Shown: piece by piece, positions 10,373 to 24,227 of the stretch
Layout of the letters: the number at the start of each line of letters is the position of its first letter
How positions within the stretch are numbered: position 1 is the stretch's first letter
From: a virus
Reading direction: 5' to 3' (one strand)
IMG/VR virus record: IMGVR_UViG_3300033149_006207
Location: 1-37,056 of that record
Length of the DNA: 37,056 nt
Made by a program: the position numbers and the translations under genes
Notes under the pieces: generated by a model
Databases searched by the model: none
Seen by the model: the letters and a program-made list of their open reading frames with translations, nothing else
Told to the model about the DNA's origin: nothing

Positions 10373-10402
10373 TTGATACCTCCTTTCTTTTATGCGAGAT
10401 TA

Positions 10403-10499
10403 CACGCCGCATACGTGGCCAACTTATAATAATTCCAGCCCATAGGCTGGGCGGAGTACCAATTACCTCTTTGCATTTACCCCCTAATTGATACTCCGC
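10403..10499 (-). promoter_or_regulatory. Structured leader upstream of the scaffold/capsid genes
   Basis: Read on the minus strand: a 15-bp stem (arms 10499-10485 and 10465-10451, one U-G pair) enclosing a purine-rich loop; a perfect 6-bp hairpin CCAGCC-TATG-GGCTGG (10450-10435); a TATTATAA box; and a small CACG hairpin. This fills the only sizeable gap between portal and scaffold. It could be an mRNA stabiliser, a processing site or part of a promoter; no T-run follows, so it is not a simple terminator. Confidence 0.5.
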
Positions 10500-10504
10500 T
10501 CAAT

Positions 10505-13323: not shown

Positions 13324-13354
13324 AAAAAAAGGCCGGCACATCATAGCACCAGCC
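13324..13354 (-). terminator. Intrinsic terminator directly upstream of the portal start
   Basis: Minus strand: GGCTGGTGC (13354-13346), loop TATGAT, GTGCCGGCC (13339-13331), nine pairs with three wobbles, then seven T residues. Six bases later is ATG 13317. It separates the terminase genes from the abundant head genes or attenuates transcription between them. Confidence 0.85.
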
Positions 13355-13420
13355 CTTTCGATTCTATCGTAAAGAGATTTAATTTAAGTTTATAACACTT
13401 GTTTTACTTCTGTCAAGAGA

Positions 13421-14964: not shown

Positions 14965-15355
14965 TTTTCTTAATAAAATTAACCCGCATTTCTTTGCCGT
15001 CAACATTAAATTGTTGAACCAGCTGTGGTCTTTCAGCAAAATCAGGGTGCCTGTTCTTTAAATAAAAAATCAAGCAAGCATTATCTCCTTCACCTGCTTT
15101 TTTAATTAAAACATCGCGCATTTCGTCATTAAGTTCACCTTCTGCTTCTGCAATTCTTTGGTTAAACTCCGGATATTTTTCCAACCATTTGTAAAAAGTT
15201 AATCTAGAAATTCCCACTGCTCGACAAATATTAGTAATATGACCAAATGTTTGTTGCCATAGCTCAACAATTTTATCCATCTTGATTTTTCTTGCCATTT
15301 CAGACGGAGTTACTTTTTTAGTGTTTACTTTCGTTAATTGTTTACTAGAAGCCAT
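14954..15355 (-). CDS. terS: Terminase small subunit
   Basis: 133 aa. A helix-turn-helix lies at about residues 36-60 (TFGHITNICRAVGISRLTFY, then KWLEKYPEF), followed by IAEAEGELNDEMRDVLIKKA and FYLKNRHPDF, the phBC6A51-type small-terminase pattern. It recognises the packaging site and recruits TerL. It is the first gene of the late operon, with only a weak ribosome site (AAAGTAA) and a TAAAAT box close to the ATG, so its message may have a very short leader. Confidence 0.88.
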   Translation of the reverse strand: MASSKQLTKVNTKKVTPSEMARKIKMDKIVELWQQTFGHITNICRAVGISRLTFYKWLEKYPEFNQRIAEAEGELNDEMRDVLIKKAGEGDNACLIFYLKNRHPDFAERPQLVQQFNVDGKEMRVNFIKKNGD

Positions 15356-15432
15356 TTACTTTATTTTATCATACCGAGGGTCTCTCCAGACCTGCGGGAC
15401 TAATTCCAGGTGACAGAGAGTCAGGTGGACAA

Positions 15433-15453
15433 CTGTTTTGAAAACTAAAACAG
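15433..15453. promoter_or_regulatory. Palindromic operator candidate
   Basis: CTGTTTT-n7-AAAACAG is a perfect 7+7 inverted repeat that ends one base before the -35 box of the rightward promoter at 15455. It has the form of a dimeric repressor or activator site. No cognate regulator can be assigned. Confidence 0.55.
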
Positions 15454-15454
15454 C

Positions 15455-15483
15455 TTGACAAATCAAAAACAAATAACTATTAT
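15455..15483 (+). promoter_or_regulatory. Near-consensus sigma70 promoter
   Basis: TTGACA (15455-15460), 17-bp spacer, TATTAT (15478-15483); predicted start near 15490. No open frame with a start follows at once; the transcript enters the folded stretch at 15519-15580. Confidence 0.7.
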
Positions 15484-15489
15484 TTAATT

Positions 15490-15600
15490 ACATTTGATGA
15501 AGTGATATAAGGTTGGTAAGACTGGGTCAGGGGAGCGGTTACCCGTCTCAAGCCTAAAAACTTGAGCTTAACAATACCGCCTGCAACTCATTATACCATA
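15490..15600 (+). ncRNA. Candidate structured RNA in the control region
   Basis: Downstream of the promoter at 15455. AGAC/GTCT plus GGGT/ACCC form an 8-bp stem with one bulge (15519-15527 with 15541-15548). TCAAG/CTTGA makes a second hairpin (15548-15565). The first loop GCGGT (15535-15539) can pair with ACCGC (15576-15580), a possible pseudoknot. No known family recognised. It lies beside the packaging genes, so a regulatory RNA, a packaging RNA or a pac element are all open. The 3' end is not defined. Confidence 0.45.
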
Positions 15601-15624
15601 CGGAATGATCGGAAAGTTACGCAA

Positions 15625-15656
15625 AAACGCCAAGACCCGCGACTTTTTCGCGGGGC
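15625..15656 (-). terminator. Hairpin with T-run in the leftward leader
   Basis: A perfect 7-bp hairpin CCCGCGA/TCGCGGG (15636-15654). Read leftward it is enclosed by a short CGCC/GGCG pairing and followed by TTTTT near 15623-15627. It lies upstream of terS, so it would stop leftward transcripts started nearer 15800 unless they are antiterminated, as in late-gene control of lambdoid phages. That comparison is inference. Confidence 0.45.
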
Positions 15657-15660
15657 GTCG

Positions 15661-15786
15661 GTAGGGAAAAGAAACCAAGTAGAAAGAAGGAGAACAACAG
15701 AGGAGGAAAGGAAACAACACATTCCGGAGGGAAATAGATTGCTAGAGGGAAGAGAGAAAAGATAGTTTGGGGGGAGGGGGGGTTTT
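15661..15786. other. Strand-biased purine tract in the control region
   Basis: About 125 bp that is overwhelmingly A/G on the plus strand, ending in GGGGGGAGGGGGGG followed by TTTTT. Apparent open frames here have no start context and highly biased composition, so I call it noncoding. Possible roles: replication origin, packaging site, or a C-rich unstructured leader on the leftward transcript. No iterons were seen apart from the pair at 15800/15841. Confidence 0.5.
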
Positions 15787-15799
15787 TATAACCGTTGAG

Positions 15800-15814
15800 A
15801 CGTCGCACAATCTT
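15800..15814. repeat. 15-bp direct repeat, copy 1
   Basis: ACGTCGCACAATCTT, exactly repeated at 15841-15855 (41 bp apart, about four helical turns). On the minus strand a TATAAA box follows 17 nt after AGATTG of this copy, so it may sit at the -35 of a leftward promoter. Likely protein-binding sites. Confidence 0.6.
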
Positions 15815-15840
15815 AAATCTTCTTTTTTTTAGGTATAACA

Positions 15841-15855
15841 ACGTCGCACAATCTT
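15841..15855. repeat. 15-bp direct repeat, copy 2
   Basis: Identical to 15800-15814. It ends seven bases before the -35 box of the rightward early promoter, suitable for an activator or for a repressor acting on both directions. Confidence 0.6.
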
Positions 15856-15861
15856 GTCTTT

Positions 15862-15889
15862 TTGTATTTTTAATATCTTATGTTATAAT
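15862..15889 (+). promoter_or_regulatory. Early promoter with extended -10, predicted leaderless
   Basis: TTGTAT (15862-15867), 16-bp spacer, TGT-TATAAT (TATAAT 15884-15889). Only six bases separate the -10 from ATG 15896, which places +1 on the A of the start codon. Confidence 0.75.
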
Positions 15890-15895
15890 TACAAT

Positions 15896-16084
15896 ATGCA
15901 AGATTTAATTAGAAAACATTGGTTTTTCCATTGCCCTTCTTGCAAACGCTTCGTTAAGAAAGATGACAACCGCTACTTAATCCAAACCAGAAAATTTGGA
16001 GAGATCAAAATCCAATGCTGGCACAGAAACTGTTTAAACTGTTTGTTTAATTACATTGAAAATTCTCTTAAGCTAATAGTATGA
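15896..16084 (+). CDS. Zinc-ribbon protein, first early gene
   Basis: 62 aa from ATG 15896 (MQDLIRKHWFFHCPSCKRFV). An upstream TTG would lie inside the promoter, so it is rejected. Cys/His pairs C-P-S-C (13-16) and C-W-H-R-N-C-x2-C (about 42-50) make a zinc ribbon. No Shine-Dalgarno: the promoter predicts a leaderless mRNA. Early position and size suggest a host-takeover or regulatory protein; function unknown. Confidence 0.75.
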   Translation: MQDLIRKHWFFHCPSCKRFVKKDDNRYLIQTRKFGEIKIQCWHRNCLNCLFNYIENSLKLIV

Positions 16085-16245
16085 ACGAAAAGCAAGAGCT
16101 GGAGCAAATCCTCTCCGGAATGAGAGCAATTTACCGGCATTTAAAAAGCAAGAGCGCTAAAGCAAGGCTGGCCAGATATGCCAATGACTTAAAAAAAAGA
16201 ATTAACAATGAGCTTTATGAACAAGGAAAAGCAATTTTTAAATAA
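16081..16245 (+). CDS. Small helical basic protein, 54 aa
   Basis: MNEKQELEQILSGMRAIYRH... , Lys/Arg-rich and helical throughout (SAKARLARYANDLKKRINNE). Its ATG overlaps the preceding TGA (ATGA), indicating translational coupling. Not recognised. Confidence 0.65.
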   Translation: MNEKQELEQILSGMRAIYRHLKSKSAKARLARYANDLKKRINNELYEQGKAIFK

Positions 16246-16248
16246 TTA

Positions 16249-16257
16249 TGTTATAAT
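16249..16257 (+). promoter_or_regulatory. Second extended -10 promoter, predicted leaderless
   Basis: TGTTATAAT, with TATAAT at 16252-16257 and ATG at 16264, six bases away. 18 of 21 bases around it match those at the 15896 promoter. No good -35 is visible, as expected for an extended -10 type. Confidence 0.65.
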
Positions 16258-16263
16258 ACCATT

Positions 16264-16407
16264 ATGACAAAAAAGAAACATGATCTCGACATTATAGAGT
16301 CGCTTATTTATTATGTTGGTATTCTCGTAACCTTTGGAGCTTTTTGGTTCGCCAAAATTATAATTAAAAAGGCTATTATTGAAGCCAACGACATAATTAA
16401 CGAATGA
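16264..16407 (+). CDS. Small membrane protein, 47 aa
   Basis: MTKKKHDLDIIESLIYYVGI..., with one transmembrane segment (YYVGILVTFGAFWFAKIII, about residues 16-34) and a charged tail. No Shine-Dalgarno; +1 of its promoter falls on the ATG. Its TGA overlaps the next ATG. Function unknown. Confidence 0.68.
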   Translation: MTKKKHDLDIIESLIYYVGILVTFGAFWFAKIIIKKAIIEANDIINE

Positions 16408-16793
16408 AGCCATATAAAATATTAAGCCGATTTGTCAAGCTCGATTTATACGATAAGGGTAATGGTGATCTTTGGCTTAACGACTTGCTATTTACTAAAG
16501 AAGATCAAACCGACGGTAATGAAAATCTTGCTTGGGCATTTAGTAGCCCAGGGGCCTCTCGATGGGAATTTAAACATCCTAAAGCTGGCTTAAGTTGGTA
16601 TATTATTACTTTTTTTGATCTTAGAACCGGCTATTTTAGTATTAGCAACTGGGAGCAGATTACTTGGTTTAAATTATTTATTTTCCCGTTTTGGTTTTTA
16701 AAAGAAAAGATAAGAGAACTTTCTGACAAATTATATGAAACAATTTATCTTTTAAAACATAAAAAATGTGTGCAGGTGGATATTTTAAATTAA
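16404..16793 (+). CDS. Hypothetical early protein, 129 aa
   Basis: MKPYKILSRFVKLDLYDKGN... Mixed alpha/beta with many aromatics and a strongly hydrophobic stretch (WFKLFIFPFWFLKEKIREL) near residues 92-110 that could be membrane-associated. Coupled by ATGA to the 47-aa membrane protein. Not recognised. Confidence 0.68.
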   Translation: MKPYKILSRFVKLDLYDKGNGDLWLNDLLFTKEDQTDGNENLAWAFSSPGASRWEFKHPKAGLSWYIITFFDLRTGYFSISNWEQITWFKLFIFPFWFLKEKIRELSDKLYETIYLLKHKKCVQVDILN

Positions 16794-17005
16794 AAGAAGG
16801 AAAAGAGGTAGAAATTTATCTTGGCTACTGGGGAGCAAAATTCGATTTTATGCCTCTTCAGTCTAAAAATAAAAAAGATAATGAAAAAACAAAAAAGCAT
16901 ATTAAAAATGAACTCCAAAAAATGACAAAAAAAGAAATTATAAATTCATTTATTGAATTTTTAGCAACATCTAATGAATTTTTAGCAACATCTAATGAGG
17001 GATAA
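16766..17005 (+). CDS. Hypothetical lysine-rich protein with a duplicated tail
   Basis: 79 aa. The N-terminus is beta-like (YFKLKEGKEVEIYLGYWGAK), followed by a Lys-rich helix. The C-terminus is an exact tandem repeat EFLATSN-EFLATSN encoded by two 21-bp units. It overlaps the preceding gene by 28 nt and has no clear Shine-Dalgarno, so the start (ATG 16766) is uncertain. Confidence 0.6.
   Translation: MCAGGYFKLKEGKEVEIYLGYWGAKFDFMPLQSKNKKDNEKTKKHIKNELQKMTKKEIINSFIEFLATSNEFLATSNEG
16955..16996 (+). repeat. 21-bp perfect tandem duplication
   Basis: Two identical 21-bp units (16955-16975 and 16976-16996) encoding EFLATSN twice, immediately before the stop codon. The perfect identity points to recent slippage. 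Confidence 0.9.
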
Positions 17006-17008
17006 AAT

Positions 17009-17245
17009 ATGAAAGTAAACCTAAAAGATGTAATCATTTTTGCTTTAATCGGATTAACTTTTTTAATCGCAGTTAGCACCCCCAGCGACCAAGACCTGCA
17101 AGATTTAAAAAGCGAAGTTGGCAGCTTGAGAGAGATAGTCAAAGAAAATGATGACTATATTACCAATATCAGCGAGGTAGTATTAGACCACGAGGATACG
17201 CTAGAGTTAATTATTGAATGCAATCCATACTGTAAGGGGTATTAA
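17009..17245 (+). CDS. Membrane-anchored coiled-coil protein, 78 aa
   Basis: Hydrophobic segment VIIFALIGLTFLIAV at about residues 8-22, then an acidic coiled coil (DQDLQDLKSEVGSLREIVKE) and a C-terminal Cys pair (ECNPYCKGY). Resembles small spanin- or Rz1-like or host-membrane phage proteins only in outline. Function unknown. Confidence 0.68.
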   Translation: MKVNLKDVIIFALIGLTFLIAVSTPSDQDLQDLKSEVGSLREIVKENDDYITNISEVVLDHEDTLELIIECNPYCKGY

Positions 17246-17248
17246 ATT

Positions 17249-17317
17249 ATGAAAATAAAAGGCTATATCACCATAAATGACATTGTCAAAGACACTAAAC
17301 GCAAGGGGAAAATTTAA
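17249..17317 (+). CDS. Possible 22-aa peptide
   Basis: MKIKGYITINDIVKDTKRKG-KI, four bases after the previous stop. It is short and has no clear ribosome site; it may be spurious. Confidence 0.25.
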   Translation: MKIKGYITINDIVKDTKRKGKI

Positions 17318-17359
17318 AACTCTGTGTATATTTAATACGCATTAAGCATAAATTGCCCC

Positions 17360-17388
17360 TTGACAACATTGTAAATAATGTTTACAAT
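17360..17388 (+). promoter_or_regulatory. Consensus promoter containing a palindromic operator
   Basis: TTGACA (17360-17365), 17-bp spacer, TACAAT (17383-17388). The spacer and -10 contain ATTGTAAA-n5-TTTACAAT (17368-17388), a perfect 8+8 inverted repeat, so a dimeric repressor bound there would block polymerase. Predicted +1 near 17395, five bases before the next ATG. Confidence 0.82.
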
Positions 17389-17399
17389 AAGGCAATTAA

Positions 17400-17660
17400 A
17401 TGTTAAAACAAAGAAGAATGAACCAAAAACCTTCAACCAAACAGGAATATGTCGAGCTCCTTAATAAAATCGGCAGGGCTTTACAGGTTATGAGCCAAGA
17501 GGATGAAGATACCTATTGTCCCTTTTGCAATAGCGACATTTCGCATTTACCTCAAAATAAGCGCAAAGAGCATTTACAAGACTGCGCCACGTGGGATCAT
17601 GTTGCAGGAGAAGTGCAAGACGAGTTAATAGCTGAATATGGAGGTAAAAATGAATTATAA
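17400..17660 (+). CDS. C2HC zinc-finger protein
   Basis: 86 aa from ATG 17400 (an internal ATG at 17418 is possible). C-P-F-C near residue 40, followed by H and C in KRKEHLQDCATW, make a BED/C2HC-like finger. Acidic C-terminus. First gene behind the operator-controlled promoter and overlapping the nuclease gene by 11 nt. Possibly a cofactor of the nuclease or a transcription regulator. Confidence 0.72.
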   Translation: MLKQRRMNQKPSTKQEYVELLNKIGRALQVMSQEDEDTYCPFCNSDISHLPQNKRKEHLQDCATWDHVAGEVQDELIAEYGGKNEL

Positions 17661-18321
17661 AAAAAGAGGCGGCTTCTATTGGGTTGATAATAAACCCTAT
17701 GCCAGCGTTACAGATATAATTAGCATTTTGGATAAACCGGCGCTTAGATATTGGTTTGGCCAGCAAGTTTATCGAGCTTTTTCTGCCAACGATCGCTTGA
17801 GCGAAAAAGAGGCCTTATCTGCACCATACAAAGCTAATAAAAAAGCTAAAGACAGGGGCTCAACGGTCCACTCAATTGTTGAAGCGTGGAAGCAAACCGG
17901 CAAATATATTGATAGCATACCAGCAGAATTTAAAGGATACGCCAAAGCCTTTTATTCTTTTGTTAGTCAGCACAAAATTAAGCTAATCGAGCATGAGAAA
18001 CAGGTGGTTAATGATAAATACGGCTATGCCGGAACGCTCGATATTATTTGTCAATTTAATGGCAATGACAAAAAAACAATCCTGGACTGTAAAACCGGCA
18101 AAGGGCTATATCCAGAAGTCGAACTGCAACTATCAGCTTATCGAGCTGCTCTTGGCAAAGACTACGACATCGCCGCCGTTTGCTTAATGGAAGACGGGAC
18201 TTTTCAATTTGCTAAATATAACAAGGATAGATTTAAAGAGTTTTTAGCTTGTTTAACAATTTGGAAGTGGCAAAACGAAGAAAAAATTAAACAATTAAAA
18301 TTATATGGAGGGCAAAAATGA
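17650..18321 (+). CDS. PD-(D/E)XK nuclease, RecB/Cas4-like
   Basis: 223 aa from ATG 17650, which has GGAGG seven bases upstream; an earlier ATG at 17638 lacks one. Nuclease motifs: H74 in GSTVHSIVEAW, E114/E116, GYAGTLD with D131, ILDCKTGKG with D146 and K148, and QLSAY (Q160-Y164). This is the RecB-family order H...E...GxLD...DxK...QxxxY. It probably processes DNA ends in phage recombination or replication. Its TGA overlaps the next ATG. Confidence 0.88.
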   Translation: MNYKKRGGFYWVDNKPYASVTDIISILDKPALRYWFGQQVYRAFSANDRLSEKEALSAPYKANKKAKDRGSTVHSIVEAWKQTGKYIDSIPAEFKGYAKAFYSFVSQHKIKLIEHEKQVVNDKYGYAGTLDIICQFNGNDKKTILDCKTGKGLYPEVELQLSAYRAALGKDYDIAAVCLMEDGTFQFAKYNKDRFKEFLACLTIWKWQNEEKIKQLKLYGGQK

Positions 18322-18635
18322 AAGCAATTATCAGGCTATCAAGCCGAATAACCATTGAAGTCGAAGAAAAAGACGAGATGGAAACCCTAAATCGAGCGAT
18401 TACTTTAACCCAACACCCAAAAAAGTGCAGTAATTGCGGCAACGAAAAAGGCCTTTATTTTACTAGCAATAAAGATAAAGAGGGCAATAACTATGTCAAT
18501 ATCAAGTGTCCGGCTTGTGGCGGCAAAGCAAAGCTCGGCCAGCTAAAGAGTGGCGGATTTTTTTGGCACAGAGAGTTTGAGGTTTATAGGCCAAAAAAAA
18601 TGGAGGAGGTGAACAATAATGGCAAAGAAAAATAA
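18318..18635 (+). CDS. Zinc-ribbon protein coupled to the nuclease
   Basis: 105 aa. The N-terminus is beta-rich (MKAIIRLSSRITIEVEEKDE); a zinc ribbon follows with KCSNCGN and IKCPACGGKAK. Coupled by ATGA to the nuclease, so a DNA-metabolism partner (for example ssDNA or junction binding) is plausible but unproven. Confidence 0.75.
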   Translation: MKAIIRLSSRITIEVEEKDEMETLNRAITLTQHPKKCSNCGNEKGLYFTSNKDKEGNNYVNIKCPACGGKAKLGQLKSGGFFWHREFEVYRPKKMEEVNNNGKEK

Positions 18636-18942
18636 GTTTAAATTAACTGAAAAAGATTTTGAAGTAGTCAAAGAACTGCTAAAGCACATGAAGGGCACTG
18701 AGGTTGCCAGATTAACCGGCTGGTCAATGGCAACTATCTATAATGTTAAGAGGTTTGATACTTATGATGAGTATTATAGCTACAATGTTAGCAGGCTTAA
18801 TAACAAAAAAGCCCCTAGCAAAAAGCCAGAGGCTAACCAAAAGGATAATGAAATTGTAACTGTTTTAAGAGAATTGGTCAATGAGGTTCGGGGCTTAAAA
18901 GAGGCTTGGTTGACAAAGCCAACTAAAAGAAGCATATTTTAA
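18619..18942 (+). CDS. Helix-turn-helix DNA-binding protein
   Basis: 107 aa. HTH at about residues 22-45 (MKGTEVARLTGWSMATIYNV), Lys-rich linker, and a C-terminal helix (IVTVLRELVNEVRGLKEAW) for multimerisation. Shine-Dalgarno GGAGGAGGTGA before the ATG. It could bind the 15-bp repeats or the 17368 palindrome; that is untested. The promoter of the downstream RNA lies inside its 3' end. Confidence 0.78.
   Translation: MAKKNKFKLTEKDFEVVKELLKHMKGTEVARLTGWSMATIYNVKRFDTYDEYYSYNVSRLNNKKAPSKKPEANQKDNEIVTVLRELVNEVRGLKEAWLTKPTKRSIF
18910..18938 (+). promoter_or_regulatory. Promoter for the intergenic RNA
   Basis: TTGACA (18910-18915), 17-bp spacer, CATATT (18933-18938), inside the 3' end of the HTH gene. 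Predicted start near 18945, just after the stop codon and at the first base of the folded region. Confidence 0.6.
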
Positions 18943-18944
18943 AA

Positions 18945-19160
18945 GCTGAAGAATAATCCGCTAGCGGAAACGGGCAAGCCACGGCGGATTATATGAGGGG
19001 TTATCCCCCTCTAAGGTTGTCCGGTGAAGGAAAGAGGCCGGAACTGGGCAACCCTAAAGGGGGAGAACTTTAAAAATTATTATTAGCAGTGTGAGGCTGG
19101 TTTTGGCTGGTTCTTTTCTTCCGGTTCATTCTCGCCGGCCTCACACTAGTGATAATAATT
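18945..19160 (+). ncRNA. Candidate structured noncoding RNA
   Basis: The 236-nt gap between two genes is densely paired. Helices: ATAATCCGC/GCGGATTAT (9 bp, 18953-18961 with 18984-18992); GAGGGG/CCCCTC (18995-19000 with 19006-19011); GGTTGTCC/GGGCAACC (8 bp, 19015-19022 with 19046-19053), with inner GG/CC. AGGGGGA (19058-19064) can alternatively pair with TCCCCCT (19004-19010), giving a possible switch or pseudoknot. A 13-bp stem AGTGTGAGGCTGG/CCGGCCTCACACT (19088-19100 with 19135-19147) follows, flanked by a further AT-rich pairing. No known RNA family recognised. Confidence 0.65.
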
Positions 19161-19178
19161 ATTAATTAAAAAAAAGAA

Positions 19179-19688
19179 ATGAAAAACTATATCTGCCTTA
19201 ATGGTAAAAAAATAAAGATCAGCCAGGAAACAGCTGAAAACCTGAAAAAAAAGCTTGGGGTTGAAGTTATTAAACCAACTCCGTCTAGCGAAATTGCTAT
19301 TTGTGATTTTAAACCTATGAGCATAATTGATTGGGATAAAAAAGAAGAGATTTTAATCAAAGATAAACCTATTAATAAGGTCTTTGTCAACCAAAAGTTT
19401 GCTGATGGCTCTAAATTTGGTGATTATTGTTTCTTTATTAATTGTAAATTTGGAGCAGGATGTGAGTTTGGAGCAGGATGTGAGTTTGGAGCAGGATGTG
19501 AGTTTGGAGCAGGATGTGAGTTTGGGGCAGAATGTGAGTTTGGATCAAATTGTGTTTTTGGAACAGGGTGTAAGTTTAAGTCAGGATGTGAGTTTGGGTT
19601 GTGGTGTGAGTTTGGATTAGGATATGAGCTTGGGAATAACTGTATTAAGAATAAGCCATATTGGGATGAAAACGGATTACATAATTAA
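19179..19688 (+). CDS. Hexapeptide/pentapeptide-like repeat protein
   Basis: 169 aa. The N-terminal ~85 residues are unremarkable (MKNYICLNGKKIKISQETAE). Then come about ten tandem six-residue units of the form C-E-F-G-A-G, which should build a small regular beta-solenoid with a Cys/Phe ladder. The tail is short (NKPYWDENGLHN). No Shine-Dalgarno; the gene directly follows the structured RNA. Function unknown; DNA-mimic or binding roles of related beta-solenoids are only an analogy. Confidence 0.75.
   Translation: MKNYICLNGKKIKISQETAENLKKKLGVEVIKPTPSSEIAICDFKPMSIIDWDKKEEILIKDKPINKVFVNQKFADGSKFGDYCFFINCKFGAGCEFGAGCEFGAGCEFGAGCEFGAECEFGSNCVFGTGCKFKSGCEFGLWCEFGLGYELGNNCIKNKPYWDENGLHN
19444..19634 (+). 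repeat. 18-bp tandem repeat inside a coding gene
   Basis: About ten 18-bp units; four consecutive ones (TGTGAGTTTGGAGCAGGA) are identical and the rest diverged. The in-frame period keeps the hexapeptide. Identity of neighbouring copies suggests recent expansion. Confidence 0.9.
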
Positions 19689-19697
19689 AAAATAAAA

Positions 19698-20327
19698 ATG
19701 AATTACACACAAAACGGCAAACTAGACATGAGATATAGAACCAACAGGGAGCTGGTTAAAAAGGCAAGAACAGCAAAGATTTGGCTGGCTATAATCTTTT
19801 TGCTTATTATTGTTGGCTTTGTTGTCAAAACGACAAGAGAAGCCAATCAGAAATTTGTTAGTCCAATCTCTGATGACAAAGAGTATTGTGTTCCCTGGTC
19901 GACAATTGAGCAAGTAATTGATGAAACAGTTGATGAAGTGATAAACGAATATAAAAACGATAAACAGAGCTCATTAGAGCCAATCTCCGCCCCGAAAATT
20001 AAAAAAGAAGCCAATTCCTTTATTAAAGCAAAAATAAGCCATTACGCTAGGGCTTATGACCTTAATGAGGAGCTGGTTGACTGCATTGTCTTTAGGGAGA
20101 GTTCTTATAACTTTCAGGCGGTTGGTGATAATGGTAAGGCTATTGGGCTGGGACAAATTTGGCCAGAAAGCTGGAAACACCTTAGGCTGGCTATGGGAAA
20201 ATCAACAGCAGATACACGGACAAATCTAGATGATGCCCTAGAAACACTCTGCTGGGGACTAGCTAATGGCTATCATAATTGGTGGTCAACTTATAATGAT
20301 TGTGTTAGTCAGGTTGTTAAAAATTAA
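19698..20327 (+). CDS. Membrane-anchored lytic transglycosylase (SLT-like)
   Basis: 209 aa. Transmembrane segment at about 28-43 (IWLAIIFLLIIVGFVV), a linker, then an SLT/lysozyme-like domain: IVFRESSYN with the catalytic Glu at 134, and GKAIGLGQIWPESW, the GLxQ motif. It would cleave the glycan strands of peptidoglycan for lysis or host-wall remodelling. Its place in the early block rather than with the holin-like genes is unusual. An ATG at 19728 is an alternative start. Confidence 0.85.
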   Translation: MNYTQNGKLDMRYRTNRELVKKARTAKIWLAIIFLLIIVGFVVKTTREANQKFVSPISDDKEYCVPWSTIEQVIDETVDEVINEYKNDKQSSLEPISAPKIKKEANSFIKAKISHYARAYDLNEELVDCIVFRESSYNFQAVGDNGKAIGLGQIWPESWKHLRLAMGKSTADTRTNLDDALETLCWGLANGYHNWWSTYNDCVSQVVKN

Positions 20328-20345
20328 AATTAAAAAGGAGAAAAA

Positions 20346-20711
20346 ATGAAAAAAATTAAAAGGGTTAATAAAAATTATTACAAAATTTTTACAGTGCCTA
20401 TTTGTGGAGTTTTTGTGGATGAATATTTAATGAAAAAATTAAACAAAATTTTGTATAAATGTAAAAACGAAATAGATGGTTTGCTTCAAAATAATATTAA
20501 GCATACCATTAAAGAGGAGTGGGCATTGGCTTATCCAAAAGGAAAACAAGAAAGTTTTTATGGAACTAATTTAGAGCCGCCCGAAAAAGCAAGTGGCCCT
20601 ATATTTAGAACAGTTAAAATTAAAAATTTATATTTTATCGGGAATAAAAATATTTATAGCGACGAAGTAAAAAGAGAGGTGGAAAAGTTAATGGAAAAAG
20701 AGAAAAAATGA
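20346..20711 (+). CDS. Hypothetical early protein, 121 aa
   Basis: Good Shine-Dalgarno (AAGGAG) before ATG 20346. Lys-rich, mixed alpha/beta, with IKNLYFIGNKNIYSDEVKRE near the C-terminus. Stop overlaps the next ATG (ATGA). No family recognised. Confidence 0.68.
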   Translation: MKKIKRVNKNYYKIFTVPICGVFVDEYLMKKLNKILYKCKNEIDGLLQNNIKHTIKEEWALAYPKGKQESFYGTNLEPPEKASGPIFRTVKIKNLYFIGNKNIYSDEVKREVEKLMEKEKK

Positions 20712-20983
20712 CTAAGAAACAAAAAACGATTGAGAAGAAAATAGAAGAACAATTAGAAGATATAGCGGTTAGATTTCCAATTGAAAGCCTAGTGTGGTTT
20801 TTATTGAGAGACAAAATAATTGAAGACTTAAAAGGACTCATCTCCGATATTATTCAAGAGATTGTTGGAAAGGATATTGATCATAACCTAGACTTTGATA
20901 TTAGAGATACGCCTGCTGACGGCTACAATCAAGCCAAACAAGAAATTTATGATCGTGCTAGAAGGTTAGGGATTAAAATTTGA
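20708..20983 (+). CDS. Helical protein, paralogue 1 of 3
   Basis: 91 aa. N-terminal helix KKQKTIEKKIEEQLEDI, central KIIEDLKGLISDIIQEIVGK, and C-terminal helix QAKQEIYDRARRLGIKI. The ends match those of 22533-22823 (KKKTIEEKIKEI ... RAKKLGIKI). Function unknown. Confidence 0.7.
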   Translation: MTKKQKTIEKKIEEQLEDIAVRFPIESLVWFLLRDKIIEDLKGLISDIIQEIVGKDIDHNLDFDIRDTPADGYNQAKQEIYDRARRLGIKI

Positions 20984-20994
20984 AAGGAGGAAAA

Positions 20995-21327
20995 ATGAAC
21001 CTAAAAAGGATTGAGAAAGAGATAGATAAATTGGCAGACGAAATGATATTGACATATGAGGCGCAGGCGAGAAATATGCAAATTGTTCCTATTACAAGAG
21101 ATAAATGGTTATATCACACTTGGACAAAGCATATTGTAAAGCTTATCCGCCAAGTTATCAAACAAGTAGTAGAGAGTGTGCCGACAGAGAATACGCTGGG
21201 GACATACTATGATTTTATCACAGAGGATAAATACCGAGAGCAAGGTTTCAATGCTTGTGTTGAGCAAATCAAACAATGGAAAAAGAAAATATTAAAGGAG
21301 GTGAAGGAAAATGATAAAAGCAGTTAG
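20995..21327 (+). CDS. Helical protein, paralogue 2 of 3
   Basis: 110 aa from ATG 20995, with Shine-Dalgarno AAAGGAGG seven bases upstream; a TTG at 20980 lies upstream of that site and is rejected. Same plan as its neighbour: N-terminal KRIEKEIDKLADEM, central HIVKLIRQVIKQVVESV, and C-terminal GFNACVEQIKQWKKKI. More diverged than paralogues 1 and 3. Confidence 0.7.
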   Translation: MNLKRIEKEIDKLADEMILTYEAQARNMQIVPITRDKWLYHTWTKHIVKLIRQVIKQVVESVPTENTLGTYYDFITEDKYREQGFNACVEQIKQWKKKILKEVKENDKSS

Positions 21328-21466
21328 ATGGATTTTGTTAATTTGGACAATAATAGGCATTCCTTCTGTTTTAAATACGCTAGATTTTGGGGAAGCGTTT
21401 TTTTCTCTTTTTTTTACTATTTTGTTTAGTGGATTAAAAACAGTAGACATAAAAACCCCAAAATAA
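21311..21466 (+). CDS. Small two-helix membrane protein
   Basis: 51 aa, Shine-Dalgarno AAGGAGGTGA before ATG 21311. Two hydrophobic stretches, WILLIWTIIGIPSVL (7-21) and AFFSLFFTILFSGL (29-42). Holin-like in size and topology, but equally any small membrane protein. Overlaps the previous gene by 17 nt. Confidence 0.6.
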   Translation: MIKAVRWILLIWTIIGIPSVLNTLDFGEAFFSLFFTILFSGLKTVDIKTPK

Positions 21467-21516
21467 GGCGATATACAAAAGAAGAGGATAATTTTATCAG
21501 AAAAAATTATTTAATT

Positions 21517-22026
21517 ATGAAATACGCCACTATAGCAAAAATTTTAAAAAGATCAAAAAAGTCATTACAATATAGAATAAGTAAACTTGGTTTAAAAAAG
21601 ATGAAAATGTGGAGCCGTAAAGAGATAAATTATTTAAAGAAACATTATCCAAGGGGAAATAGTAACGCTATTGCTAATGTTTTGGGGCGAACAGTAGATG
21701 ATATTCATAACAAAGCCTCTAAACTTAAGATTAAGAAAGATATTAGTTTTATGAAAATGGGAGCAAAAAATCCACACTGGAAAGGCGGGAAGAAAATGAT
21801 AATGGGATATGTTGCTGTAAGAAAAAACATGAAATATATCCTGGAACATCGCCTGGTGTATAACAAAACTTTTGGCACAAGGCTGTCTTCAGGGGTAATT
21901 ATTCATCATAAAGACGGTAACCCGCTAAACAACAATCCATCCAATTTAGTAGCCATGTCTTTGGAAGAACATAGTAGATTACACAATAAAAATAGAAAAA
22001 GGAGGGACAATGGTCAATTCATGTAG
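21517..22026 (+). CDS. HNH homing endonuclease with N-terminal HTH repeats
   Basis: 169 aa as started at ATG 21517. Two Myb/HTH-like repeats (YATIAKILKRSKKSLQYRIS and SNAIANVLGRTVDDIHNKAS), a KNPHWKGGKK segment, then the HNH core LEHRLVYNKTF, VIIHHKDGNPLNNNPSNLV and EEHSRLH. The frame is open upstream: 18 more codons from an ATA at 21463 (RRYTKEEDNFIRKNY) would complete the first Myb-like repeat, so the original start may have been lost. Probably a free-standing homing endonuclease. Confidence 0.85.
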   Translation: MKYATIAKILKRSKKSLQYRISKLGLKKMKMWSRKEINYLKKHYPRGNSNAIANVLGRTVDDIHNKASKLKIKKDISFMKMGAKNPHWKGGKKMIMGYVAVRKNMKYILEHRLVYNKTFGTRLSSGVIIHHKDGNPLNNNPSNLVAMSLEEHSRLHNKNRKRRDNGQFM

Positions 22027-22345
22027 AAAGGGGAAACGAGGGGAAAGAGAGGTCGTTCGTCTCTTACGAAAAATATTTCCAAATATAAAAAGAAATATTG
22101 TTCAGGCAAGAGAGGGGGGCGTTGATTTAATAAATTGCTCACCGCTAAATATTGAAATTAAGACAGGAAAACAAGCTAATATTAAAAAGATTAGGAAGTG
22201 GTTAAATCAAGTTAAAGAAGAGGGGCGGCCGGAAAACTTTGATTTAATCATTGCCAACCCAGACCGTGAAGATTGGTGGATAGTAATGCCGTTTGATGAT
22301 TTAATAGAATTATTAGAGTTAATGAAAAAGGAAGGAGTTATATAA
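22010..22345 (+). CDS. Holliday-junction-resolvase-like (Hjc/PD-(D/E)XK) nuclease
   Basis: 111 aa. KGKRGEREVVRLLRK (E12), EGGVDL (D39) and IEIKTGK (E49, K51) give the E...D...ExK core of archaeal Hjc and phage resolvases. Normal length for the family. It would resolve branched DNA before packaging. Shine-Dalgarno AAGGAGG before ATG 22010; overlaps the HNH gene by 17 nt. Confidence 0.86.
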   Translation: MVNSCRKGKRGEREVVRLLRKIFPNIKRNIVQAREGGVDLINCSPLNIEIKTGKQANIKKIRKWLNQVKEEGRPENFDLIIANPDREDWWIVMPFDDLIELLELMKKEGVI

Positions 22346-22536
22346 TGAGCGCTAATAATGTAATTTATATTAACCATAAAACACTTGAGGTATTTTATCA
22401 AGCCTGTATTGATAATGGCTTAAATAATGCTGAAAAAATAGGCAAAGGTAAAACGCTAGATGATGCTTATAAAATTGCTGAAAAATGGCTAGATAAACAA
22501 AATTATTTTTTAGAATATGGTATCCAAATTATATGA
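22345..22536 (+). CDS. Hypothetical protein, 63 aa
   Basis: MSANNVIYINHKTLEVFYQA... with KTLDDAYKIAEKWLDKQNYF, a small alpha/beta domain. Shine-Dalgarno GAAGGAG upstream; one-base overlap with the resolvase gene and a 4-nt overlap with the next gene. Not recognised. Confidence 0.68.
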   Translation: MSANNVIYINHKTLEVFYQACIDNGLNNAEKIGKGKTLDDAYKIAEKWLDKQNYFLEYGIQII

Positions 22537-22823
22537 TGAAAAAAAAGACAATTGAGGAGAAAATAAAAGAAATAGTTGCTTATCATAGTGATGATGGAAC
22601 AAGCGGCTGGTTGCTTGATGATAAACAAATTAAAAAACTAGTTAACTTATTCTCTAGCACTCTCCGTGAGGTGGTTGGAGAGGATGAAGAATGCGATCAT
22701 TTTTTTCAAGATATTAAAAAAGATAATTTGTTATTAAGAGAGGATGGTGCTAGAAAATATGGCCGGAATATGCTTAGACAAGAACAACGTCAGCGAGCTA
22801 AAAAGTTAGGGATTAAAATTTAA
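22533..22823 (+). CDS. Helical protein, paralogue 3 of 3
   Basis: 96 aa. KKKTIEEKIKEIVAY at the N-terminus, KKLVNLFSSTLREVVGEDEE centrally, QEQRQRAKKLGIKI at the end; clearly related to 20708-20983. Function unknown. Confidence 0.7.
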   Translation: MMKKKTIEEKIKEIVAYHSDDGTSGWLLDDKQIKKLVNLFSSTLREVVGEDEECDHFFQDIKKDNLLLREDGARKYGRNMLRQEQRQRAKKLGIKI

Positions 22824-22846
22824 CGATTATTAGTTAAAGAAGAAAA

Positions 22847-22999
22847 ATGACTAAAGAGAGAAAGCCTAAACTGCGTCGAGTCGGTTTAGAGCTAAATGAT
22901 ACTCAGCTCTCTTGCGTGCCAATTCCTGCCACTAGAGCGGAAAAGAAGCGCAAAAAGCCCAAAAGAAGACTCGGGTCTTTTTGGACAGATAAATATTAA
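22847..22999 (+). CDS. Small basic protein, last early gene
   Basis: 50 aa, MTKERKPKLRRVGLELNDTQ ..., ending in a Lys/Arg cluster (AEKKRKKPKRRLGSFW). It may bind nucleic acid. Weak ribosome site (AAGAAG). It ends at the convergent junction with the late operon. Confidence 0.6.
   Translation: MTKERKPKLRRVGLELNDTQLSCVPIPATRAEKKRKKPKRRLGSFWTDKY
22959..22984. terminator. Candidate terminator at the convergent junction
   Basis: CCAAAA...AGAC-TCGG-GTCT...TTTTGG, an imperfect hairpin with a T-run inside the end of 22847-22999. It is the only such structure at the meeting point of the early and late transcripts. Moderate to weak. Confidence 0.4.
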
Positions 23000-23000
23000 A

Positions 23001-23183
23001 TTATTTGTCTTCGTTTTTCCTACAAGCAAGGTGGCCTGACCACCAAGCAGTTCTTAACGCCGCTGAAGCAATCTCAAACCTTACTCTAGGCGAATAACTG
23101 CCAAAGTCTTCTGAGCTTAAAATTCTTACCCAGTTTCTAATGCTTTTAATACATTGGTCTTCTTCAGGTTTTCTTTCTATCAT
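23001..23183 (-). CDS. Hypothetical protein at the end of the late operon
   Basis: 60 aa, with IKSIRNWVRILSSEDFGSYS and a helical SPRVRFEIASAALRTAW segment. Overlaps the phosphoesterase gene by 20 nt. Not recognised. Confidence 0.6.
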   Translation of the reverse strand: MIERKPEEDQCIKSIRNWVRILSSEDFGSYSPRVRFEIASAALRTAWWSGHLACRKNEDK

Positions 23184-24227
23184 TGCGTAGAGCGGCTAAT
23201 AAATAATGGGCTTCGTGAGCCAATAATCCTGTTTCAAAATCCAAATGCGTGTCAAGAATTCTTTTTCTTGGGTAGATAGTAACAGACTCGCCTGATGGTT
23301 CGCCAGATACTCCCCTTCTTTGCTGTATCCAAGCGTCAGGAACTTTGCCAATCCCCTTATAAGTGCCGGAACGGATATAAGCAACGATTTTCCTTTCTTT
23401 GCCTTCATAGGACATATGGGTTGCTCCCCAATGCTTGTGAGCTCCGATAATAATATCTGCCTGCATATTTTCATTTAAACGGTTCATTTGCTTAAGAGCG
23501 TGAACTTCATTAAAGTTAGACTCAAACGGACCTACCTGATGATAAAGCACCATCCGGTATTTTTGTTTGGTCCGCCTGCCGTCGGTAAACCTTAAATCAA
23601 GATGGCCGCCATTTTCCAAAATAGGAAATTGCCGTCCCTCATAACCAAATATCAGTTTGTTAATATCTTGTCCAGCCACTTGATAGGTCCAACCTTCATG
23701 GCAAGGCGACTCAACTGCTCCCAAAATCTTGCCTGCCTCATCCAGCTCTTGAATGATTTTTCGCATTGCTATTACCTGCTGATTAGGCGGAATGGCATTA
23801 GCCAACATCCCGTCAGGGTATTTTGCCGGAATAGCATTATCAATTAAGTTGCTCATCAGCACAATATAAGCGTTAGGAGTGGCTATAATCTCTTCCATAT
23901 CTTGGTGGAATTTGTCTGTGTCAGTATAAATCGAACCATAGTGGACATCACCAATAGCAAAGATGGTAATCGGCAGTTCAGTGCCAAATTTAATTTCAGC
24001 CCGTGGCTGGGTAACTTTTGCCTCAAGATAACCCCGCGTTGCCTCAGTAATATTTTTTCTAACTCCTCTAATCGACAATTCGCTTGATTTAATCCCGACA
24101 AACTCCGGCGTAAAATGCTCCCATTTTGACTTTTCTCTTAAGCCCGCTCAAGAGTCTCATCCGGAAGGTCAATGGCTTCTTCTGGGATATACATTTGCTT
24201 TTCAGCCCTAATTTCTTTTATCCCCAT
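23164..24227 (-). CDS. Calcineurin-like metallophosphoesterase, one frameshift
   Basis: The uninterrupted part (from about 24137) carries the metal-binding order of the family: AIGDVHYGS, VLMSNLIDN, SPCHEGW, LYHQVGPF and IIIGAHKHWG. It has no ATG, only a TTG at 24078. Upstream, ATG 24227 with a good GAAAGGA site begins MGIKEIRAEKQMYIPEEAID and stops at TAA 24140-24138. Adding one T there joins ...ETLERA to LREKSKWEHFTPEFVG without a break, giving about 354 aa. So this is one gene with a one-base indel (real or technical). Likely a phage nuclease or phosphatase; substrate unknown. Confidence 0.78.

Follow-up and report, generated by a model that had tools for sequence, protein, structure and literature searches.

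In phages such as T7, early mRNAs carry RNase III sites and leader hairpins. The phi29-type packaging RNA and the GOLLD and ROOL RNAs are also phage-associated, and HDV-like theta ribozymes of Caudoviricetes are small structured RNAs residing in phage intergenic regions (PMC10879173). In the bacterial chromosome, structured leaders and other RNAs have been found with the GC-IGR pipeline, which exploits long GC-rich gaps in AT-rich genomes as a signature and whose motifs are backed by covariation across homologues (PMC8632094).

The locus considered here is a gene-free gap in a 37056-base IMG/VR phage record (G000), the whole of which was analysed and is referred to as the window. Like the GC-IGR leaders, it is long and GC-rich for the AT-rich genome that contains it, with a strong fold, a promoter side upstream and a gene immediately downstream, but it is represented by one sequence, from a phage. 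With the T7-type sites it shares a long imperfect hairpin located just upstream of an early gene in a polycistronic message; unlike them, it combines three hairpins with an alternative pairing instead of a single processing stem, and there is no evidence of cleavage. Loop-loop complementarity could drive multimers, as in the phi29-type packaging RNA, GOLLD and ROOL. However, at 236 nt the RNA is far smaller than GOLLD or ROOL and has no Rfam match, and the window phage differs from phi29 in packaging, as it encodes a TerL-type terminase.

The resemblance to theta ribozymes is limited to the phage intergenic position and to the string CUGGGCAACC, which recalls HDV-like cores. This assignment was rejected: both the nested double-pseudoknot order P1-P2-P3-P1.1-P4 and the catalytic C at the first position of J4/2 are absent, inspection by eye of ~19043-19070 shows that just 13 nt would separate the strands of a P1 and that a P4 there would not be followed by C, and there is neither an Rfam match nor an adjacent tRNA. 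ARAGORN reported 0 tRNA or tmRNA genes. A hammerhead was likewise discarded; CUGAAGA (18947) and GAAAC (18967) are present, but 18954-18966 forms no stem II closed against them and H1 uses bases of this region. An RNA thermometer does not fit an unpaired start region lacking a Shine-Dalgarno sequence.

Genome setting of the gap

In the window, tail, head and terminase genes are on the - strand, whereas an early-type cluster occupies the + strand. The folded gap sits in this cluster, between an HTH gene and a hexapeptide-repeat gene (Table 1). The original prediction of a 236-nt gene-free stretch is confirmed: only small frames are found in it, namely a 26-codon ATG frame and frames of 20-24 codons. 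The former, in H2 (18993-19073), was rejected as a gene, its length being no greater than chance allows.

The upstream protein matches the phrog_125 HTH family weakly (E 0.003), its AlphaFold model is helical (pLDDT 74), and comparison with the PDB gave generic weak HTH matches only. The downstream hexapeptide gene carries GAGCEF repeats. It has no Shine-Dalgarno sequence and its start region is A-rich; Shine-Dalgarno sequences are also absent from other genes of this phage that have no leader. Relatives of the terminase occur in metagenome-assembled genomes (MAGs) labelled Saccharibacteria, Micrarchaeota and unclassified bacterium, although these labels may be binning errors.

Table 1. Features of the folded gap and its surroundings (window coordinates)
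Feature	Position	Strand	Description	Support
HTH gene, upstream	18619..18942	+	107 aa, HTH and long C-terminal helix	ORF
Promoter-like site	18910..18938	+	TTGACA-N17-CATATT, 10/12 consensus	predicted TSS ~18945
Gene-free gap	18943-19178		236 nt	
H1	18953..18992	+	10-bp stem 18953-18962/18983-18992; purine-rich loop of ~20 nt (AGCGGAAACGGGCAAGCCAC)	pair probability 0.97
Alternative hairpin A	18995..19011	+	GAGGGG-UUAUC-CCCCUC; mutually exclusive with H2 base	
H2	19004..19064	+	7+2+11 bp, 19004-19025/19043-19064	pair probabilities 0.83-1.0
Loop-loop complementarity	19026..19122	+	19026-19044 with 19100-19121; 19 standard base pairs interrupted by a single 3-nt bulge	
H3	19075..19160	+	19075-19101/19134-19160; AT-rich 11-bp base and GC-rich 14-bp stem; 32-nt loop	
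First gene downstream	19179..19688	+	169 aa; hexapeptide-repeat coils of the left-handed beta-helix type, preceded by a small beta-beta-alpha N-terminus	
Second gene downstream	19698..20327	+	209 aa; lytic transglycosylase (SLT) domain, plus a membrane anchor recognised by eye	PF01464, E 4.7e-6

Strength of the fold

The + strand of 18925-19180 folds at -96.7 kcal/mol compared with -65.4 +/- 4.4 kcal/mol in dinucleotide shuffles (z -7.15), and none of the 200 shuffles folds as well. When the whole record is cut into 200-nt pieces, 19001-19200 ranks first out of 369 (z -7.8; runner-up -5.2). In a set of 146 intergenic strands (130-400 nt) taken from the window phage and its relatives, the gap has the best MFE per nucleotide and is second by z (-6.7). 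Extreme folds are nonetheless not unique to it, since L064 8398-8725 reaches z -7.0; strongly folding gaps are found in relatives too. The control region (15356-15853, 498 nt) shows no unusual folding (z -0.1 and -0.6).

Two further elements were noticed along the way. In the window, an intergenic stretch between late genes (10373-10504, + strand) also has an unusually strong fold (z -6.3). In a related locus, an intergenic element resembles tRNA-Leu by eye (L065 4833-4952; z -5.2), with a GGGGCGG...CCGCCCC acceptor and a GCAGGGTGCAAATCCCTGC T-arm; it is detected by neither ARAGORN nor Rfam.

Almost every other gap in the record is shorter and less GC-rich. The expectation that its GC content would be far higher than that of its neighbours holds for H1 (0.55) and H2 (0.56) but not for H3 (0.42), the flanking genes being at 0.35, the whole gap at 0.45 and the window at 0.387.

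The - strand of the gap folds as well (z -5.4), yet 20 kcal/mol more weakly, and its fold contains 4 G-U pairs compared with 11 in that of the + strand. Because the + strand folds better and with more G-U pairs, an RNA read from this strand is favoured over a DNA-level palindrome, which is suggestive but not proof. The same asymmetry speaks against the region being an operator, a replication or recombination site or the remnant of a small mobile element, with inverted repeats that merely look like hairpins. Such an element would agree with H3 being a 31-nt inverted repeat (84%), with the substantial - strand fold, with the adjoining gene for an HTH protein and with the lack of the entire HTH-gap-hexapeptide cassette in the relative L003. 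However, there is no second copy in the record and none in phages or plasmids, and we regard a DNA-level role as unlikely.

Hairpins, alternative pairing and a possible loop-loop contact

The predicted fold consists of three hairpins, H1, H2 and H3, with mean pair probabilities of 0.83-1.0. The strong helices proposed originally (9, 6, 8 and 13 bp) are confirmed as predictions, although the counts were slightly off, the stems comprising 10 bp in H1, 7+2+11 bp in H2 and 11+14 bp in H3. H2 is built from UCCCCCU/AGGGGGA (7 bp), UA/UA and GGUUGUCCGGU/ACUGGGCAACC (11 bp), closed by a 17-nt loop (GAAGGAAAGAGGCCGGA, 19026-19042). The start region of the gene at 19179 is unpaired in this fold.

An alternative involving TCCCCCT and AGGGGGA had also been suspected, and there is indeed a true competition at this site: the base of H2 is contested by hairpin A (GAGGGG/CCCCUC). 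Forcing hairpin A into the full RNA changes the MFE from -95.7 to -89.7, a cost of 6 kcal/mol. When growing 5' fragments are folded, hairpin A is predicted with the first 75-105 nt and is displaced once AGGGGGA has been made.

The complementarity between the loops of H2 and H3 takes in the entire 17-nt H2 loop and two additional bases. The duplex scores -18.6 kcal/mol, whereas opening of the loops costs ~11 kcal/mol. It is equalled by 0.02% of random pairs of stretches from the early region, and by 4.5% of shuffles preserving the loops' own purine-rich/pyrimidine-rich composition. The two loops may engage in a kissing interaction or provide a contact between dimer partners.

Functionless hairpins, produced by chance or by duplication in a fast-evolving phage gap, would account for an orphan that the nearest relatives lack. 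They would hardly account for a fold that is the extreme of the record and comprises three separate stable hairpins with complementary loops, making this explanation highly improbable.

Promoter and transcript end

A TTGACA-n17-CATATT promoter starting exactly at the fold had been proposed. The site is present, overlapped by the last codons of the HTH gene, and it is plausible as a promoter, with a predicted start at ~18945, 8 nt 5' of the first helix. The -10 element is weak (4/6), and promoter-like sites in general are not above shuffles (35 vs 27 +/- 6.4). On the other hand, an exact TTGACA-N17 with an acceptable -10 is found on the + strand of the whole 37-kb record only at 15455 (within the control region that precedes the + cluster), 17360 (immediately ahead of the gene at 17400) and 18910 (immediately ahead of the folded gap). 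In other words, all three are at or beside gaps opening + transcription units, and it is because such sites are so few and so placed that the 18910 promoter, a consensus match only, is credible.

The promoter at 17360-17388 (+ strand; TTGACA-17-TACAAT) carries in its spacer the palindrome ATTGTAAA-TAATG-TTTACAAT, a likely repressor site. The apparent gap 16246-16403 contains an unlisted small ORF (16264-16407, + strand, ~48 aa) with a hydrophobic stretch; a promoter-like match at 16286 falls inside it and hence is probably spurious.

No intrinsic terminator with a U-tract was found on the + strand of 15300-23200, all nine terminator-like sites (9/9) being on the - strand. The next start codon comes 18 nt after H3, and the intervening AATTATTAATTAAAAAAAAG is A-rich, not T-rich. 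A transcript from 18945 should, judging from these features, run into the hexapeptide gene. With no + strand terminator and the next gene 18 nt past H3, a leader of the downstream mRNA is likelier than a free RNA. Thus, of the proposed structured RNA with its own promoter, the fold and a plausible promoter stand, whereas an independent RNA gene fits less well, since no + strand terminator was found in 15300-23200.

The same evidence bears on a small RNA acting in trans on other RNAs or by binding a protein, either independent or freed by RNase III at H3. The promoter-like site and the compact multi-hairpin fold are what such an RNA would have, dimers could form through the complementary loops of H2 and H3, and RNase III could plausibly act on the long helix of H3. 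Yet the + strand of 15300-23200 offers no terminator, H3 being followed by A-rich sequence, and when the loops were compared with the start regions of 54 phage genes, no pairing exceeded chance expectation. The single strong match, of the H2 loop to the portal start, coincides with a terminator hairpin, and windows of this kind make up 0.4% of the genome. We consider a small RNA rather unlikely. As for the portal gene itself, the terminator-like hairpin (AAAGGGCTGG...CCGGCCTTTTTTT, 13324-13374, - strand) is at the annotated ORF start, and the true start is probably further in.

Homologue searches

The original prediction could not match the RNA to any known class, and this remains so. Rfam 15 covariance models gave 0 matches in the window at the gathering threshold, and a permissive search returned chance matches only (best E 0.016, a miRNA hairpin) and no riboswitch. 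Relatives were found neither by blastn against phages and plasmids nor as a second copy within the record. Exact cores searched in viral and genome contigs yielded no homologue, the 10 matches being in unrelated reading-frame-like contexts and not folding like H1. The HTH, lysozyme and hexapeptide proteins used as baits gave no useful relatives; terminase and exonuclease baits yielded ~45 related loci. A covariance model of the single sequence (R1), which detects close relatives only, found none in ~60 related phage loci and 3 genomes with a related terminase, nor in genomes of two phyla considered as candidate hosts (380 sharing a phylum with the Saccharibacteria MAG and 146 with the Micrarchaeota MAG). 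By all these searches the RNA is an orphan, a single sequence. Its status as a novel class is consequently unproven, because no homologue was found and one sequence is not a class.

The possibility of a metabolite or ion riboswitch, or of a protein-binding attenuator, of a new class should be seen in this light. The leader position, the long GC-rich gap and the mutually exclusive pairings A and H2, 6 kcal/mol apart, are all in its favour. However, we could recognise no expression platform, there being neither a U-tract terminator nor a Shine-Dalgarno sequence to hide; Rfam gave no riboswitch match even with permissive filters; and the sequence conservation usual in riboswitches was not found for this RNA. 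Such a regulator is, in our opinion, very unlikely.

Promoter-plus-leader layout in related phages

In the related locus L003, the exonuclease and zinc-finger genes are followed directly by a lysozyme-like gene, without the HTH gene, the RNA or the hexapeptide gene. The closest complete relative, G003 (terminase 67-68%), has nothing resembling the RNA in its exonuclease-to-terminase stretch. Elsewhere in this sister phage (L049 4219-4028, - strand), TTGACA-17-TATATT lies over the end of an upstream gene and is followed by a 157-nt folded gap with three hairpins (z -3.3 to -3.5). Over 23 residues (48%; E 0.001 for this pair alone), the N-terminus encoded by the gene after it is similar to that of the 19179 protein. 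The two leaders share the promoter-plus-folded-leader layout but differ in the order and sizes of their helices, and no homology between them was detected (Smith-Waterman p 0.49; no recognition by the unfiltered covariance model).

A third case is L019 3833-3990, where TTGACA-16-AATAAT precedes a compact 81-nt two-hairpin RNA (z -3.9) before the portal gene. Its candidacy as a homologue through the loop motif GGC(GA)AAGCCAYGG was dismissed, as overall similarity is not above shuffles and unfiltered R1 misses it. Based on these cases, a promoter followed by a folded leader may be customary in these related phages, with the RNA itself an orphan, the comparisons having been chosen after looking.

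Some features of these loci deserve mention in their own right. In the L019 RNA, a GUCCC strand is common to the fold and to a strong U-tract terminator, an arrangement that is riboswitch- or attenuator-like, with no Rfam match. In G003, two early-type promoters (L049 4219 and ~2861, - strand) have a common operator-like spacer, ACATAAC-N6-GTTATRT. Adjoining the G003 leader counterpart is a gene of GGGTCT/GGGTCTAGGTCT-type tandem repeats (L049 3417-3719, - strand; GSGSWAGS...), paralleling the GAGCEF repeats of the hexapeptide gene in the window.

Discussion

Our preferred reading, to which we assign a probability of roughly 0.5, is that the gap is the structured 5' leader (~234 nt) of the early-region hexapeptide/lytic transglycosylase mRNA and acts in cis. 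The fold goes beyond dinucleotide shuffles, and the promoter, identified by consensus, is on the same strand as the gene with no terminator between them. Counting for a leader are the exceptional fold, the length and GC content of the gap, the better folding of the + strand, the promoter-like site, the missing Shine-Dalgarno sequence of the 19179 gene and the G003 layout at a comparable gene; counting against it are the failure of the searches above to find a homologue, the lack of conservation in the relative L003, the weak -10 element, the strong folds in gaps of relatives and the fact that Shine-Dalgarno sequences are absent elsewhere from genes without a leader. We infer transcription of the gap, with the three hairpins folding inside the cell and influencing in cis how stable the downstream message is or how well its genes are translated.

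If so, host RNA polymerase would start at ~18945 from TTGACA-17-CATATT and would transcribe H1, hairpin A or H2, H3 and then the hexapeptide-repeat and lytic transglycosylase genes. H3 would keep the A-rich sequence around the 19179 start codon single-stranded and might shield the message on its 5' side. At the A/H2 exchange, the outcome could be altered by a protein, a ligand or pausing of the polymerase.

It is tempting to speculate further that the RNA represents a new phage-specific class, in which a three-hairpin leader with an A/H2 switch is locked by the long H2-H3 loop-loop contact and either controls the hexapeptide-repeat/lytic-transglycosylase message or forms RNA dimers, though we find this proposal quite unlikely. 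Should both the switch and the loop-loop contact prove true, this would be a new regulatory RNA; at present it is a well-supported single candidate. Structured RNA has barely been looked for in phages of uncultivated hosts, since a large number of homologues is required by most methods. The gap in the window, together with the similar gaps of G003 and L019, suggests that this phage group uses structured leaders which are missed by standard annotation.
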